Assembly: GCA_019240115.1 (NCBI GenBank)
Contig: JAFAYV010000079.1
Coordinates: forward strand, 1-64,000
Reading direction: 5' to 3'
Origin: Solirubrobacterales bacterium
GTDB taxonomy: Bacteria > Actinomycetota > Thermoleophilia > Solirubrobacterales > Solirubrobacteraceae
Length of the DNA stretch: 64,000 nucleotides
A program made the position numbers and the translations under genes. This document shows, piece by piece, positions 2,624-9,304 of the stretch. The notes under the pieces were generated by a model. The model saw only the letters and a program-made list of their open reading frames with translations. It was not told the origin of the DNA and made no database searches. Within the stretch, counting starts at the first letter, position 1. Each line of letters opens with the position of its first letter.

Positions 2624-3703
2624 TCAGGCCGGCAGCGAGTAGAGAGAGCCGGCCCGCTCGATCACGCGCCGCCCCGTCAGCGGCAGCGGCGCCGGACCGC
2701 CGAGCACGGCGCCGGTCTCAGAACTGAAGCGACTCCCGTGACAGGGACAGACGATCTCGCCGCCCTGATAACCGACGGTGCACCCCTGGTGGGTACAGAC
2801 CGCGCTGAACGCCGTCAACGAGCCGTCGGTGTGGCGGATCACGATGTCGGGTCGATGGGTGGCGGGGTCGCGGTAGAGGGCCCCCTGGCCGGGCGGCAGC
2901 TGTCCGGCGGCGCCGATCCGGACCGCGCCCTGCGGCAGGCGGTCACGCGCCGCGGCCGTGCGCCCACGCCCGGTGACGGCACGAGCTCCGCCCGATTCGT
3001 GCCCGGTGGCCGCGGCGCTCGCTTGTCCCGAGCGCGCATCGAGGTGCACCGCGGTGCCGTGGTAGCTGCCCTTCGTCAGTGCGGAGATGGCGCCGATCAC
3101 GAGCGCCAGCATCCCGGTCGCGCCGAGCAGCGAGCGTCGGGTGATCGGCGCCAGTCCGGCGGGGCCGACGTCCCGATCGGACCGTGCTCGACGCGCGGCG
3201 AAGCGCGCGGCCCGGCGCGCGCGGAGCCGCTCAAGGCGATCCATGGCCTCGTCCAGAGCCGGCTGCCCCTGAGAGCCGGCGAGCACGAACGGCAGCCAGG
3301 CGAATACGAACACGATGTCGGAGCCGAGGAAGTACGGGTACGTGTGCCAGCTGTTAGTCAAGAACAGGACCAGGTTGAGCAGCAAGCCGGCCGTCGCCGC
3401 GGCGCGGGTGAGCAGGCCGAGAAGCACCAGCAGGCCGACGAGCAGCTCCACGAATGCGACCCCGACGCCGGCCAGCTGGGGGTGGGGCATCGCGAACGCA
3501 CGCAGCAGGAAGCCGCCCGGGGTCCCCCGGGCAAACGCCGTCAGCTGGTTGCCGATGTAGGTGGGCGCGCCCGGATGCAGGAAGCCGGGGTCGCTGAGCT
3601 TCTGCACGCCCGCGTAGATGAACGTCACCCCCAGGAACGCCCGCAGCGGCACCAGCGCCAGCGCCGGCGGGCGTCTCCGGAGGATCCTCGGGGGTTCGGC
3701 CAT
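2624..3703 (-). CDS. DoxX-family membrane protein fused to a Rieske 2Fe-2S domain
   Basis: Two-domain redox membrane protein. Residues about 15-145 hold the four hydrophobic segments of a DoxX/DoxD-like domain. An Arg/Ala-rich cytosolic stretch follows, then a twin-arginine motif (ITRRSLLG, near residue 188) leading into another hydrophobic segment. Residues about 255-359 form a Rieske domain with box I CTHQGC (C303, H305, C308) and box II CPCHGS (C319, C321, H322), so all iron ligands and the disulfide cysteines are present. The internal Tat-like signal suggests the Rieske domain is folded before being placed outside the membrane. DoxX proteins act in thiosulfate/quinone or thiol redox systems; the partner here is unknown. 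The 290 bases downstream hold no convincing gene. Confidence 0.87.
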   Translation of the reverse strand: MAEPPRILRRRPPALALVPLRAFLGVTFIYAGVQKLSDPGFLHPGAPTYIGNQLTAFARGTPGGFLLRAFAMPHPQLAGVGVAFVELLVGLLVLLGLLTRAAATAGLLLNLVLFLTNSWHTYPYFLGSDIVFVFAWLPFVLAGSQGQPALDEAMDRLERLRARRAARFAARRARSDRDVGPAGLAPITRRSLLGATGMLALVIGAISALTKGSYHGTAVHLDARSGQASAAATGHESGGARAVTGRGRTAAARDRLPQGAVRIGAAGQLPPGQGALYRDPATHRPDIVIRHTDGSLTAFSAVCTHQGCTVGYQGGEIVCPCHGSRFSSETGAVLGGPAPLPLTGRRVIERAGSLYSLPA

Positions 3704-4134: not shown

Positions 4135-5361
4135 TCAGCGCATGATCCCGGTGTGCCCCAGCGAGTACCTGCCCGGCTGCGGCCAGACGCACAACCCGTG
4201 TGGGCCTTGCCCCACTGGAATTGTCGCCCGCAGATGGCCGGTACGGGTATTGATCGCGTAGACCACGGCGTTGTAGCGGCCGCTGAGCCACAGCGTCCGC
4301 CCGTCGGCGGACACCCCGCCCATGTCCGGGCTGGCCGGCGGGGGCAGCTGCCAGGTGGCGATCACCCGGCGGGTGCCAAAACTCACCACCGAGATCGATC
4401 CCTGCTGACGGTTGGAGACGTACAGCACGCGCGCGTTGCGGCTCGGGTACAGGCCGTGTGCCCCCGCGCCGGTCCTGAGGAACCCGATCACGCGAAATCT
4501 GGCCGGGTCTATCTCCCACAGGCCGCCGTTGATCTGGTCGGCGACGTACAGGGTCCGCCCGTCGGGTGACAGCTTGACGTCCTGGGGACTGGCCAGGCCG
4601 CCGTGCAGGACGAGCGTCCGGATCACTCGGCGGGTGCGCAGATCGATCTCGATCATCCGGCCGCTGAACTCGCAGCTGGCGTACGCGTAGTGGCCGAACG
4701 CCGAGAAGTCCATGTGATCGACGCCACGGCAGGCGGGCACCGACAGCGAATAGCGCAGGCGCATGGTCCGGGGATCGCGAAAGTCCAGACGCGCGAGTCG
4801 CTCGGCGACGACGATCGCGAAGTGTCCGTCGGGGGTGAAGTACAGGTTGTAGGGGTCTCGCACCGGTATGGCCTTGCCGGGTCGCCCGGTGCGCGGGTCG
4901 ATCGGCGTCAGGCTGTTACCGAGATCGTTGTCGACGTAGAGCGTGCGCAGGTCATAGGCCGGTGTCACATGCTGGGGCAGCGCGCCGGTGGGAAACTCGG
5001 CGATGACCTTGAACGTGCGCTGAGCGATCACCGAGACGGTGCCGCTCATGCTGTTGGGTACGTACACCAGGGCCGGATCGCGCCTCACCCGTGGGCTGAG
5101 GTCGCCAGCCGCGTCGGCGCGGTAGACGTCGAGGGCCACGTTCCGGCGCTGACGTGGCGTCGGTCCGGGCAGCGGCAACGCCTGGGTCGTCGTCGCTGAC
5201 TGGGTCCCACTGGTGTGCTGGCGTGAGCCCGAGCCGCACGCCGCGATCGTCAGCGCGGCGATGAGACTCGCGCCGGCCATTGCGGCGGCGCGGCGGCCCC
5301 GGGCCACGCGGCGGCCGCGGGCAAGGATCGCGCGGCAGGCGCTGACGCGGTCGGCGTGCAC
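4135..5361 (-). CDS. YVTN/NHL-type beta-propeller lipoprotein
   Basis: 408-residue extracytoplasmic beta-propeller. An Arg-rich N-region is followed by a hydrophobic core and a canonical lipobox LTIAAC (Cys42). The mature protein shows repeated blades with patterns such as LVYVPNSMSGTVSVI, RTLYVDNDLGNSL, RTLYVADQINGGLWEID and RVLYVSNRQQGSISVV, the YVTN-like signature with DGRTL turns. Such propellers bind ligands or proteins or form surface structures; some carry enzyme activity, but no catalytic signature is visible. Start is GTG at 5361, which keeps the positively charged N-region. It is divergent from the Kelch-type lipoprotein at 5487 with only 125 bases between the starts, so the two may share control. 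Confidence 0.8.
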   Translation of the reverse strand: MHADRVSACRAILARGRRVARGRRAAAMAGASLIAALTIAACGSGSRQHTSGTQSATTTQALPLPGPTPRQRRNVALDVYRADAAGDLSPRVRRDPALVYVPNSMSGTVSVIAQRTFKVIAEFPTGALPQHVTPAYDLRTLYVDNDLGNSLTPIDPRTGRPGKAIPVRDPYNLYFTPDGHFAIVVAERLARLDFRDPRTMRLRYSLSVPACRGVDHMDFSAFGHYAYASCEFSGRMIEIDLRTRRVIRTLVLHGGLASPQDVKLSPDGRTLYVADQINGGLWEIDPARFRVIGFLRTGAGAHGLYPSRNARVLYVSNRQQGSISVVSFGTRRVIATWQLPPPASPDMGGVSADGRTLWLSGRYNAVVYAINTRTGHLRATIPVGQGPHGLCVWPQPGRYSLGHTGIMR

Positions 5362-5486
5362 CGAGCAGAAGCTACCCTGTGGTCCATCCCCCCGGTCAAG
5401 CGGCGCATGAGAAAGTGCTCATCGGGCCCGAGAAGCGACACCGGGCTGAGTTAGCCTCGCCGCCCATCGAGCTCCCGTTCTCACCG

Positions 5487-6527
5487 ATGCGGCTTGCTTC
5501 CTGCTTCGCGCCGCCCGGTTCCCGGCCACGATGGGTGGCGCTGGTCTGCGTGGTGGCGGCGATCGCGCCAGTCGCCGGATGCGGTGGGGCGGCGGCACCC
5601 ACCGGCACGCATCGTCGCCCGGCGGCGCGGGTGCGGTCGCGCCGAACCACCCACGCTCCGGCGACGGTCGCCCGCCGGCTGGTCTATCGCTCCCTGTATT
5701 CCCTGCCGGCCCCGGTCCGCGACCCGGCATACGCGCTCCTGGGTCGTCGGGAGCTGGTGCTGCTCGGCGGGCTGAACGCCGCTGATGTCTCCACCGCCGG
5801 CATCGAAGTCGCCGACGAGCGTCGGCTGTTGCGATCCGCCGCGCTGCCGTTGGCTCAGCACGACGCCCAGGCCGCCGCGCTGAACGGGCTTGTCTATGTC
5901 TTCGGCGGCGGTGGCGCCATCGAGCTGGATCACATCATCAGCTTCAACGCGGCTCGCGGCATCGTACGCCAGGTTGGAAGGCTGCCCCACGCCCAGTCAG
6001 ACGTGGCCGTGGCGGCGACGGGCGGCATCGCCTACATCGTGGGCGGCTATGACGGAAGCTCGTGGCTGAACACGATCCTGGCCTGGCGTCCGGGAGCGGC
6101 GGCCAAGGTGGTGGGTCATCTCCCCGTCGGCCTGCGATACGCGGCGGCAAGCGCGGTCAGCGGGCAGGTGGTCATTCTCGGTGGCTCGACTCCGACTGGC
6201 GCCAGCACCGCGATCTACCGCTTCGACCCTCGGACCGGGTCGGTCAGACCGATCGGCCGGCTACCCCGGCCGATCACCCACGCCACCGCCGCAACCCTCG
6301 GCGGCTTCGTTTACCTCGTCGGCGGACGCGGCGACGATCTCGAGTCGCAGACCGCCGAGGTTCTCGCCGTCGACCCGCGCTCCGGTGCGGTGCGCCGCGC
6401 CGGCCGTCTCCCCCAACCGCTGTCCGACGCCGCTGTGGTCAGCACCGGGCACCGCCTCGTGGTTGCCGGCGGTCTCACGCCAGCCGGAACCCAGGCGCAG
6501 GTCGGCGAGCTGACGGCCGCTGGCTAG
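5487..6527 (+). CDS. Kelch-repeat beta-propeller lipoprotein
   Basis: 346-residue lipoprotein. The frame is open further upstream, but the ATG at 5487 starts directly before a proper signal peptide (ALVCVVAAIAPVAGC), so it is preferred. The lipobox is PVAGC. The mature part has five or six Kelch-like repeats with the glycine pairs typical of the fold: YVFGGGG, AYIVGGYDG, VVILGGST, VYLVGGRGDD and LVVAGGLTP, each followed by a strand containing a conserved aromatic or arginine. It probably acts at the outer face of the membrane as a binding module; no enzymatic motif is visible. It is transcribed away from the YVTN propeller lipoprotein. Confidence 0.8.
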   Translation: MRLASCFAPPGSRPRWVALVCVVAAIAPVAGCGGAAAPTGTHRRPAARVRSRRTTHAPATVARRLVYRSLYSLPAPVRDPAYALLGRRELVLLGGLNAADVSTAGIEVADERRLLRSAALPLAQHDAQAAALNGLVYVFGGGGAIELDHIISFNAARGIVRQVGRLPHAQSDVAVAATGGIAYIVGGYDGSSWLNTILAWRPGAAAKVVGHLPVGLRYAAASAVSGQVVILGGSTPTGASTAIYRFDPRTGSVRPIGRLPRPITHATAATLGGFVYLVGGRGDDLESQTAEVLAVDPRSGAVRRAGRLPQPLSDAAVVSTGHRLVVAGGLTPAGTQAQVGELTAAG

Positions 6528-7386: not shown

Positions 7387-8112
7387 ATGACCGCCGTGAC
7401 AATCCCCCCCGCCATCGCCGATCGCCTGGCGGCGCTGCCGTGGGCGCAGCTGCACGAGGCGCTCGACGCCCACGGCTTCGCCGAGACGCCCGCCGTCCTG
7501 TCCGCGGCGGAGTGTGAGCAGCTGGTCGGGCTGTATGAGGCCGGCCGGTTTCGCAGCACGATCACGATGGCCCGCCATCGCTTCGGGCAGGGGGAATACA
7601 AGTACTTCGACCACCCGCTCCCCGGCCCGGTCGCCGATCTGCGCACCGGGTTCTACCCGCCGTTGGCCGAGGCCGCCAACCGCTGGGCCGATCGGCTCGG
7701 AGAGGACATCCGCTATCCGGTCGACCACGCGGCGTTCCTGCAGCGCTGCCACGCGGCCGGGCAGAGCCGGCCAACGCCGCTGATCCTGCGCTACGGACCC
7801 GGTGACTGGAACGCGCTGCACCAGGACCTCTACGGCGACCTCGCCTTCCCGTTCCAGGTCGTCACCGTGCTCGAGCGCCCCGGCGCTGACTTCCGCGGTG
7901 GGGAGTTCGTGCTGCTCGAGCAGCGCCCGCGCGCGCAGAGCCGCGCCCACGTCGTCAACCTGCGTCAGGGCGCGTTCCTGATCTTCGCCACGCGTCAGCG
8001 ACCGGCGCGCGGCAGCCGCGGCTTCTACCGCGCCGCCATCCGCCACGGCGTGAGCACGGTCACCGCCGGACGGCGCACGACCCTGGGCATCGTCTTCCAC
8101 GATGCGAGATGA
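7387..8112 (+). CDS. 2OG-Fe(II) oxygenase of the damaged-DNA (PF09859-like) type
   Basis: 241-residue 2-oxoglutarate/iron(II)-dependent oxygenase. The HxD iron-binding pair is H145-Q-D147 in NALHQDLYGD. The distal histidine is H220 in AAIRHGVS, followed by arginines 229-230 that would bind 2-oxoglutarate. The overall pattern (RYGPGDWNALHQD, GGEFVLLEQRPRAQSR, RQGAFLIFATRQRP) matches the family annotated as oxygenase acting on methylated damaged DNA, which is related in role to AlkB. A good Shine-Dalgarno sequence (GGAGG, 7375-7379) precedes the ATG. Two alkyltransferase genes follow on the same strand, supporting a role in alkylation repair. Direct substrate is inferred from family and context. 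Confidence 0.85.
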   Translation: MTAVTIPPAIADRLAALPWAQLHEALDAHGFAETPAVLSAAECEQLVGLYEAGRFRSTITMARHRFGQGEYKYFDHPLPGPVADLRTGFYPPLAEAANRWADRLGEDIRYPVDHAAFLQRCHAAGQSRPTPLILRYGPGDWNALHQDLYGDLAFPFQVVTVLERPGADFRGGEFVLLEQRPRAQSRAHVVNLRQGAFLIFATRQRPARGSRGFYRAAIRHGVSTVTAGRRTTLGIVFHDAR

Positions 8113-8186
8113 CCGTGATCACCTCACATCCACCGCCCGTGCATCGTCTGATCAAACACCGGCAAACTCAACGTCAGGACCGCATC

Positions 8187-8819
8187 ATGACCGCCCGCCC
8201 CACCGAGCTCGAACAGCGCCTCGCCGACACAGCTCAGGCGCCGAGCGACGACCGGTTCGCTCGCCTGCGCGACCGATTGGTGCAGCGCGCCGCACAGGAG
8301 GGGCTGCTCGACGTCGCCTTCGCGCCCGTCTCCAGCCCGCTCGGGGAGCTGATCGTCGCCGCCACGCCCGCAGGCGTCGTCCGGCTCGCCTACGACGACG
8401 AGACCCGCGACGAGGTCCTCGCGAACCTCGCCGCGCGCATCTCGCCTCGCGTGCTCGAAACCCCGAGCCGTCTGGACGCCGTCCGGCGCGAGCTCGAGGA
8501 GTACTTCGTCGGCACGCGCACCGCTTTCGAGCTGCCGCTCGACCTTCAACTCAGCGCCGGATTTCGCCGCGCGGTTCTGGACGCCACCGCCCAGATCCCC
8601 TACGGGCACACCGGCACCTACCGATCGGTGGCCACCGCCGCAGGAAGCCCTCGAGCCTTCCGCGCGGCGGGAACGGCCCTGGCCACCAACCCGATCCCGA
8701 TCATCGTGCCCTGCCACCGCGTGCTGCGCTCGGGTGGAGGGATCGGCCCCTACCGCGGCGGCTCCGAGCGCAAGCAGATGCTGCTGGACCTCGAGGCCGA
8801 GCACCAGCCACGTCCATGA
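8187..8819 (+). CDS. ogt: methylated-DNA--protein-cysteine S-methyltransferase, first copy
   Basis: 210-residue suicide alkyltransferase that moves an alkyl group from O6-alkylguanine to its own cysteine. The acceptor is C176 in PIIVPCHRV. The DNA-binding helix-turn-helix precedes it (IPYGHTGTYRSVA, with SPRAFRAAG for the arginine finger region). It carries an extra N-terminal segment of about 40 residues not found in minimal Ogt. The frame is open to 8109, but the ATG at 8187 is preferred because upstream codons look like leader sequence and an AGGAC precedes it. It overlaps the second alkyltransferase by 4 bases (ATGA), so translation is probably coupled. Confidence 0.9.
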   Translation: MTARPTELEQRLADTAQAPSDDRFARLRDRLVQRAAQEGLLDVAFAPVSSPLGELIVAATPAGVVRLAYDDETRDEVLANLAARISPRVLETPSRLDAVRRELEEYFVGTRTAFELPLDLQLSAGFRRAVLDATAQIPYGHTGTYRSVATAAGSPRAFRAAGTALATNPIPIIVPCHRVLRSGGGIGPYRGGSERKQMLLDLEAEHQPRP

Positions 8820-9304
8820 CTCGCACGCTCTACACCGCGTGGGCAAGCCCGCTCGGCGACCTGCTGCTGCAAGGCGACGAGCGCGCGCTGTGCGCCATCC
8901 ACCTTCCCGGCCGCCACCCGGACCGCGACGGCGGGGTGACCGCGACCGCGCCGTTCGTCGCGGCCATCGAGCAGCTCGAGCAGTACTTCGCCGGAACACG
9001 CACGGCGTTCGACCTGCGGCTCGACCCCGAGGGCAGTCGCTTCGACCACGCCGTATGGCGACACGTGAGCGCGATCCCCTACGGGCAGACGAGCAGCTAC
9101 GCGCAGATCGCTCACGCCATGCGCCGCCCCGACCGCGCCCGCGCCGTCGGAGCAGCCAACGCCCGCAACCCGCTGCCGATCATCGTCCCGTGCCATCGGG
9201 TCATCGGCAGCGACGGCTCGCTCACCGGCTACGCCGGAGGACTGGATCGCAAGCGCGCGCTGCTCACCCTCGAGCAGGGCGCGTGGCAGGAGCGCCTACT
9301 GTGA
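8816..9304 (+). CDS. ogt: methylated-DNA--protein-cysteine S-methyltransferase, second copy
   Basis: 162-residue minimal Ogt. The active site is C126 in PIIVPCHRV, preceded by IPYGQTSSYAQIA (DNA-recognition helix) and RAVGAANARNP. It is clearly paralogous to the gene just upstream but diverged outside the active site and lacks its N-terminal extension, so this is an old duplication or a deliberate pair rather than a recent tandem copy. The start at 8816 gives a 4-base overlap with the preceding stop. Last gene of the alkylation-repair cluster; a hairpin lies shortly downstream at the boundary with the convergent regulator. Confidence 0.92.
   Translation: MTRTLYTAWASPLGDLLLQGDERALCAIHLPGRHPDRDGGVTATAPFVAAIEQLEQYFAGTRTAFDLRLDPEGSRFDHAVWRHVSAIPYGQTSSYAQIAHAMRRPDRARAVGAANARNPLPIIVPCHRVIGSDGSLTGYAGGLDRKRALLTLEQGAWQERLL

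Follow-up and report, generated by a model that had tools for sequence, protein, structure and literature searches.

DoxX proteins are common and, to our knowledge, most of them have no known biochemical function. In the window, by which we mean the whole analysed stretch of 64,000 nucleotides from a Solirubrobacterales bacterium, a single reading frame joins a DoxX/DoxD domain to a Rieske [2Fe-2S] domain (Table 1). This locus raises the question of whether the combination is a genuine protein, on which side of the membrane its cluster lies, and what a DoxX bundle could contribute to electron transfer.

Architecture and distribution of the fused protein

The window protein matches the Pfam families DoxD at residues 18-122 (E 4.2e-15, 56.5 bits against a cut-off of 22.7), DoxX at residues 17-116 (E 9.2e-12, 45.9 bits against a cut-off of 23.6), and Rieske at residues 279-340 (E 3.6e-12, above cut-off). 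In the AlphaFold2 model, the helices of the DoxX part lie at residues 14-37, 75-95, 99-121, and 128-142, helix 5 lies at residues 190-211, and the Rieske beta fold is C-terminal to helix 5. The whole-protein fold search had Rieske proteins among the matches listed, and the top solved-structure match of the Rieske domain was 8hn2_A (E 1.2e-15). The first-pass annotation had described a four-helix DoxX domain, twin arginines, an extra helix, and a full Rieske cluster, and this architecture is borne out by Pfam and by the model. The full-length model, with 12 family members as input, has a mean pLDDT of 73 and a pTM of 0.46, with pLDDT below 50 in the poorly conserved linker region (residues 206-253); therefore, the placement of the DoxX part relative to the Rieske domain in it is unreliable. 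The DoxX part modelled alone, with 64 sequences, has a pLDDT of 94.

Table 1. Features of the fusion gene and of the genes around it. Positions are those of the window, except for those preceded by a locus name
Feature	Position	Strand	Basis or remark
Transposase, near contig end	2-1051	minus	
Beta-lactamase-family protein	1142-2332	plus	Pfam
DoxX-Rieske fusion protein	2624-3703	minus	Single 359-aa ORF, ATG start
Rieske [2Fe-2S] domain, residues 257-357	2633-2935	minus	Pfam Rieske E 3.6e-12
Ligands C303, H305, C319, H322; disulfide C308/C321; tuning Ser324	2732-2797	minus	Motif conservation
Low-complexity linker, residues 212-256	2936-3070	minus	Low pLDDT, poor conservation
Membrane helix 5, residues 190-211, last residue K211	3071-3136	minus	Model and hydropathy
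Internal twin-arginine motif TRRSLL, residues 188-193	3125-3142	minus	RR-x-hydrophobic-hydrophobic conservation
Arg-rich loop ahead of helix 5, residues 148-189, predicted cytoplasmic	3137-3262	minus	K+R count
Four-helix DoxX/DoxD domain, residues 14-148	3260-3664	minus	Pfam DoxD and DoxX above cut-off
YncE-like beta-propeller protein	4135-5361	minus	Pfam
Kelch protein	5379-6527	plus	Pfam
Multi-helix protein with conserved histidines	L033:7044-7736, L034:4768-5739, L037:5089-5775		

A search for the DoxX-plus-Rieske architecture, as suggested with the first description of the locus, led to 38 fused proteins from 35 genomes, each with both domains in a single ORF and with the pattern of ligands and disulfide cysteines intact (38/38). 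In the profile-guided scan of GTDB genomes, the best 80 of 302 loci were retained. Ten of these 80 loci encode DoxX and Rieske in one ORF, and the remaining 70, nearly all from Streptomyces, encode DoxX with no Rieske ORF within the flank. Whole-genome searches revealed the fused protein in 4/199 genomes of the class of the window organism and in 8/198 genomes of its phylum, where 32 genomes had some match and the non-fused ones were DoxX-only or Rieske-only. In the phylum of L034, a MAG labelled as Chloroflexi, the fused protein is present in 19/151 genomes, and 21 genomes were matched, two of them as partial pieces. The Proteobacteria labels of L033 and L039 are doubtful, since their genome belongs to the same GTDB phylum as L034. 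All 26 genomes sampled from Kitasatospora (the genus of Kitasatospora paracochleata) have a near-full-model match, and each of the 25 loci checked is a single ORF. The fusion is rare in the close circle of the window organism, with a full-length match in two of 61 near genomes, the window genome counted; the nearest full homologue in this search (L003) has 57% identity.

A sequencing error joining two genes, the doubt raised in the first-pass annotation, was rejected and, like a chance read-through, retains practically no probability, since the intact fusion recurs across the genome searches in many independent assemblies, including all the sampled Kitasatospora genomes, and identical small subclades appear in both the DoxX and the Rieske trees. 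The fusion is a real and widely inherited bacterial membrane protein. Plasmid carriage was rejected as well, as none of 94 matching plasmid records reached 80% query coverage.

Membrane insertion and the iron-sulfur cluster

The window protein possesses the residues T-R-R-S-L-L, with R189-R190, at the start of helix 5. The loop ahead of it (residues 147-189) holds 11 lysines and arginines, and the first extracytoplasmic loop two. As RR is weak evidence by itself in an Arg-rich loop, the case for a Tat motif rests on conservation. Of the 38 fused proteins, 33 have RR-x-hydrophobic-hydrophobic in the 19 residues that surround the helix 5 start, whereas shuffling these residues would give 2.4; relatedness is uncorrected in this count. 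The cruder count of RR near a called helix 5 gave 28/38, with helix 5 sub-threshold in several proteins. The five exceptions to the motif are L034, L037, L188, L176, and L178, and in the last two the hydropathy rule may misplace helix 5. In L034, L037, and L188 the twin arginines are replaced by NRAE or TRAE and helix 5 is rather hydrophobic (2.3-2.7); these fusions are possibly inserted without Tat.

In the available text of Tooke et al. 2017 (PMC5449189), the pattern seen here, of four helices, an Arg-rich loop, RR, and a fifth helix with a terminal lysine, defines proteins whose insertion Sec starts and Tat completes. The window protein has an even number of helices, the RR motif, one last helix, and a C-terminal cofactor domain, and TatC is encoded in the window genome (G000:C35). 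The even number of helices ahead of RR would place the Rieske domain outside the cytoplasm through combined insertion, and export of the domain probably involves both Sec and Tat. The mixed Sec/Tat insertion proposed earlier for this locus is thus well supported by the motif count, TatC, and the Arg-rich loop on the predicted inside. Few multi-span proteins are made by Sec and Tat jointly, and a broad family would join them here.

The available text of the same paper (PMC5449189) includes a five-helix Rieske homologue of Kitasatospora setae, KSE_30950, with RR beside helix 5. Similar to the window protein, this actinobacterial protein has five helices, twin arginines at helix 5, and a C-terminal Rieske domain. 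Since the fusion is present throughout the Kitasatospora genomes sampled, KSE_30950 is almost certainly a member of the DoxX-Rieske family. Tat targeting of a five-helix Rieske protein is therefore already in print. The words DoxX and DoxD do not occur in Tooke et al. 2017, and its available text contains no further study of KSE_30950 and no mention of a DoxX identity, the distribution, a split form, or the gene neighbours. The literature search, by titles, found no publication on a DoxX/DoxD-Rieske fusion. Added here are the breadth of the family, its split version, the Rieske-less syntenic gene of Streptomyces, and the proximity of two-component genes.

The first-pass annotation had likened the protein to actinobacterial Rieske proteins such as QcrA. 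This likeness holds for targeting, as QcrA (e.g. Sco2149) shares the even number of Sec helices, RR ahead of the last helix, and the Rieske domain outside, although QcrA has two helices ahead of RR and the DoxX-Rieske protein four. It does not extend to the role of a bc1 subunit. QcrA is a bc1 subunit adjoining QcrB, whereas the DoxX-Rieske protein is not encoded with cytochrome bc1. The window protein reaches 33.9 bits against the NCBIfam QcrA cut-off of 275, Pfam gave no match to the QcrA_N region in it, and a separate QcrA-QcrB pair is located on another contig of the window genome (QcrB at G000:C68). Identity with the bc1 Rieske protein was rejected because the genome holds another one, which makes the DoxX-Rieske protein an extra Rieske protein.

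The cluster motif of the window protein, of the bc type, is C303-T-H305-x-G-C308 ... C319-P-C321-H322-G-S324, and all four cysteines of the protein lie within it. As ligands and disulfide cysteines are kept in every fused protein, the cluster is under selection. Its surroundings in the window protein include the tuning pair Ser324 and Phe326. In the available text of a 2025 study of such positions, serine and tyrosine raise the potential, by ~130 mV and ~65 mV in yeast, and a natural anammox Rieske protein with Phe/Ser has a potential of +335 mV (PMC12954380). By comparison with this Phe/Ser protein, a fairly high potential is expected for the Rieske cluster of the window protein, which would suit electron uptake from menaquinol. 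The tuning serine is found in nine of the 38 fused proteins and Gly or Ala in the rest, so the potential probably differs between lineages.

Gene neighbourhoods and the split and Rieske-less versions

Among the neighbours of the fusion in the window, namely the transposase and the beta-lactamase-family, YncE-like, and Kelch proteins, no clear electron partner was found. The window locus has neither a two-component gene nor a cytochrome-like gene, and on the left the contig end and the transposase truncate it. No RNA elements were found within the window. The Kelch protein has a partial homologue in another fusion genome, G228 (L150:3-236, 47% over 78 aa), where it adjoins the cytochrome-like and NuoF-like genes. 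Judged by eye, two adjacent ORFs further along, 8109-8819 and, in its C-terminal part, 8102-9304, resemble O6-methylguanine-DNA methyltransferases (PCHR motif).

A response regulator or kinase gene is located within 400 nt of the fusion at 15 of 37 distinct loci; 38 loci were examined, of which L186 repeats L039, and the window locus was excluded. As many of the negative loci had just 1.5 kb of flank, this count is a lower bound. The same distance yielded no two-component gene at 70 Streptomyces DoxX loci and none at 20 other Rieske loci (eight more of the 28 supplied had no Rieske match at threshold). The 15 positive loci come from about nine separate tree branches and differ in gene order, and related loci are not independent. 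The two-component gene is divergent from the fusion at L154, L032, L160-L163, L176, L177, and L179, and is downstream in an operon with it at L036, L038, and L157. In Kitasatospora, the 1.5 kb flanks of the 25 loci examined contain no two-component gene. In the fusions of L036, L038, and L116, the loop ahead of helix 5, predicted to be cytoplasmic, holds an insert with four cysteines, and these are exactly the three fusions followed directly by a same-strand response regulator.

At three loci of two genomes (L033, L034, and L037) the fusion is adjoined by a 230-aa multi-helix protein, which has conserved histidines within its helices and invariant His73, His150, and His164. The two of these proteins tested had no Pfam match, and our guess is that the protein may be a b-type cytochrome. 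The cytochrome-like family (about 175-230 aa) is present in eight of 19 fusion genomes and absent from 11. In six other fusion genomes the gene lies away from the fusion, including the window genome (G000:C51, L164:6990-7517). There, a cluster at L164:6173-13393 (contig C51) comprises a DoxX-like ORF, the cytochrome-like protein, a NuoF-like SLBB protein, ApbE, an OmpR regulator and, by sequence, a kinase. The DoxX-like ORF of this cluster had no Pfam match and its likeness was judged by eye. The cluster is a possible transmembrane electron-transfer locus.

In the DoxX tree, which has midpoint rooting only and includes 13 of the 70 stand-alone loci, the stand-alone proteins of Streptomyces are nested within the fused set. 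Thirteen stand-alone DoxX proteins form a clade with the Kitasatospora fusion (support 99/90), and within the tree Kitasatospora L041 pairs with Streptacidiphilus L047 (99/91). As the Rieske tree was built from few columns and its branches are long, only its small subclades were used. L041 is flanked by guaA and a PspC gene, similar to most stand-alone DoxX genes of Streptomyces. The stand-alone gene beside guaA thus has the neighbourhood of the Kitasatospora fusion but no Rieske domain, and no Rieske domain or ORF was found at these syntenic genes in flanks up to 6 kb. The nesting and the shared neighbourhood make it more likely that Streptomyces lost the Rieske part than that Kitasatospora gained it. 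As DoxX persists in Streptomyces without Rieske, it must be useful alone.

A split version is present in one actinobacterial family (f22), among the closest stand-alone Rieske genes. There, a DoxX gene lies within 1.5 kb of the Rieske gene at nine of 15 loci, one of the nine DoxX genes being confirmed by Pfam, and at none of 29 other Rieske loci with equal flank. All nine split loci belong to one lineage and count as one event.

Possible roles in electron transfer

The selected cluster and its repeated linkage with DoxX point to a function as an electron relay. We give an even chance to the reading that the DoxX-Rieske protein relays single electrons from menaquinol to an acceptor in the membrane or outside the cytoplasm. 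The N-terminal DoxX/DoxD four-helix bundle would be inserted by Sec and would keep the Rieske [2Fe-2S] domain, exported by Tat, at the outer surface of the cytoplasmic membrane. The most probable source of electrons for the Rieske head at this surface would be the menaquinol pool, either close to the DoxX bundle or by way of it, and the head would then pass them to the acceptor. In some lineages redox or envelope conditions would probably induce synthesis of the relay, hence the association with two-component genes. Against this reading stand the Rieske-less DoxX gene of Streptomyces and the lack of a constant partner gene, with the cytochrome-like family absent from 11/19 genomes and no two-component gene within 400 nt at 22/37 loci.

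R21, K35, E86, G90, and G96 are invariant in all 64 DoxX sequences, whether fused, stand-alone, or split, and H120 is kept in just 19 of them. No conserved cysteine position was found in the DoxX part across the family, and that of the window protein has no cysteine at all. Thiol chemistry within the DoxX domain, which the first-pass annotation had offered beside quinone chemistry, is therefore disfavoured and was rejected. Contact of the DoxX-Rieske protein with a quinone is plausible; conservation gave no nameable cofactor or quinone site in the DoxX part.

The top solved match of the DoxX part in Foldseek was NACHO/TMEM35A (E 6.6e-3), which has a similar four-helix fold (VIA-align Z 11.2, rmsd 3.5, 125 aligned). 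The HTTM / vitamin K carboxylase fold, here helices 1-4 of gamma-glutamyl carboxylase (residues ~46-187), may also be similar (VIA-align Z 7 to 9.8), and 134 residues of 9l20_A were aligned with an rmsd of 4.4. These Z values of 7-11.2 are below the ~13 advised for helical bundles in VIA-align, and function is not transferable from them. No PDB chain matched the DoxX sequence profile up to E 10. In the available text on gamma-glutamyl carboxylase, the vitamin K hydroquinone is held mainly by helices 5-8, plus H160 of helix 4 (PMC12589487). Since this pocket lies mostly outside the matched helices, the fold match was rejected as proof of a quinone site.

A tentative and rather unlikely reading makes the fusion a minimal menaquinol oxidase, one chain working without cytochrome b, in which DoxX presents menaquinol to the Rieske head and the head donates electrons outside the membrane. 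If this were true, the DoxX family would gain a redox role and a measurable cofactor. The DoxX bundle might also be a mere anchor or docking platform, with the Rieske head moving electrons from one soluble partner or lipoprotein to another and quinone playing no part. Such an arrangement would agree with the absence of redox residue conservation in the DoxX part, with the long, disordered linker, and with the lipoprotein-like Rieske protein of the split version, which has its own anchor. We nevertheless hold it to be improbable, as DoxX is the more conserved half (79% identity to L003 against 60-61% for the whole protein), the invariant R21, K35, and E86 are unneeded for a mere anchor, and the stand-alone DoxX persists in Streptomyces.

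It is distinctly unlikely that the protein is a redox sensor for the adjoining histidine kinase, with the state of the cluster signalled through the DoxX helices. The two-component genes near the fusion, found in several gene orders and in none of the controls, agree with a sensor, and three operon-type fusions also carry the four-cysteine insert. However, no such gene was found at the 22 other loci or at the window locus in the stretch examined, Kitasatospora keeps the fusion in 26/26 genomes with 0/25 loci having a two-component gene in their flanks, and transcriptional control explains the divergent pairs equally well.

The DoxD/DoxX domain is common to the window protein and to the DoxDA thiosulfate:quinone oxidoreductase, with Rieske here where DoxA is found there, and DoxD is the top Pfam domain of the window protein. 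Sulfur chemistry by a thiosulfate:quinone oxidoreductase with a Rieske domain in place of DoxA is still very improbable. The window protein reaches 31.0 bits against the NCBIfam cut-off of 300 for this enzyme, whose identity was rejected on that ground, no DoxA subunit or domain was found among the annotated neighbour genes, and the DoxX part has no conserved cysteine.

For the role of DoxX, the natural Rieske fusion and its split-gene counterpart offer a spectroscopic handle through EPR and redox titration. Most of the Kitasatospora genomes searched, and of the Streptomyces-like genomes in the phylum search, also encode a second protein of about 460-670 aa, whose match to the profile lies mainly in the DoxX part.
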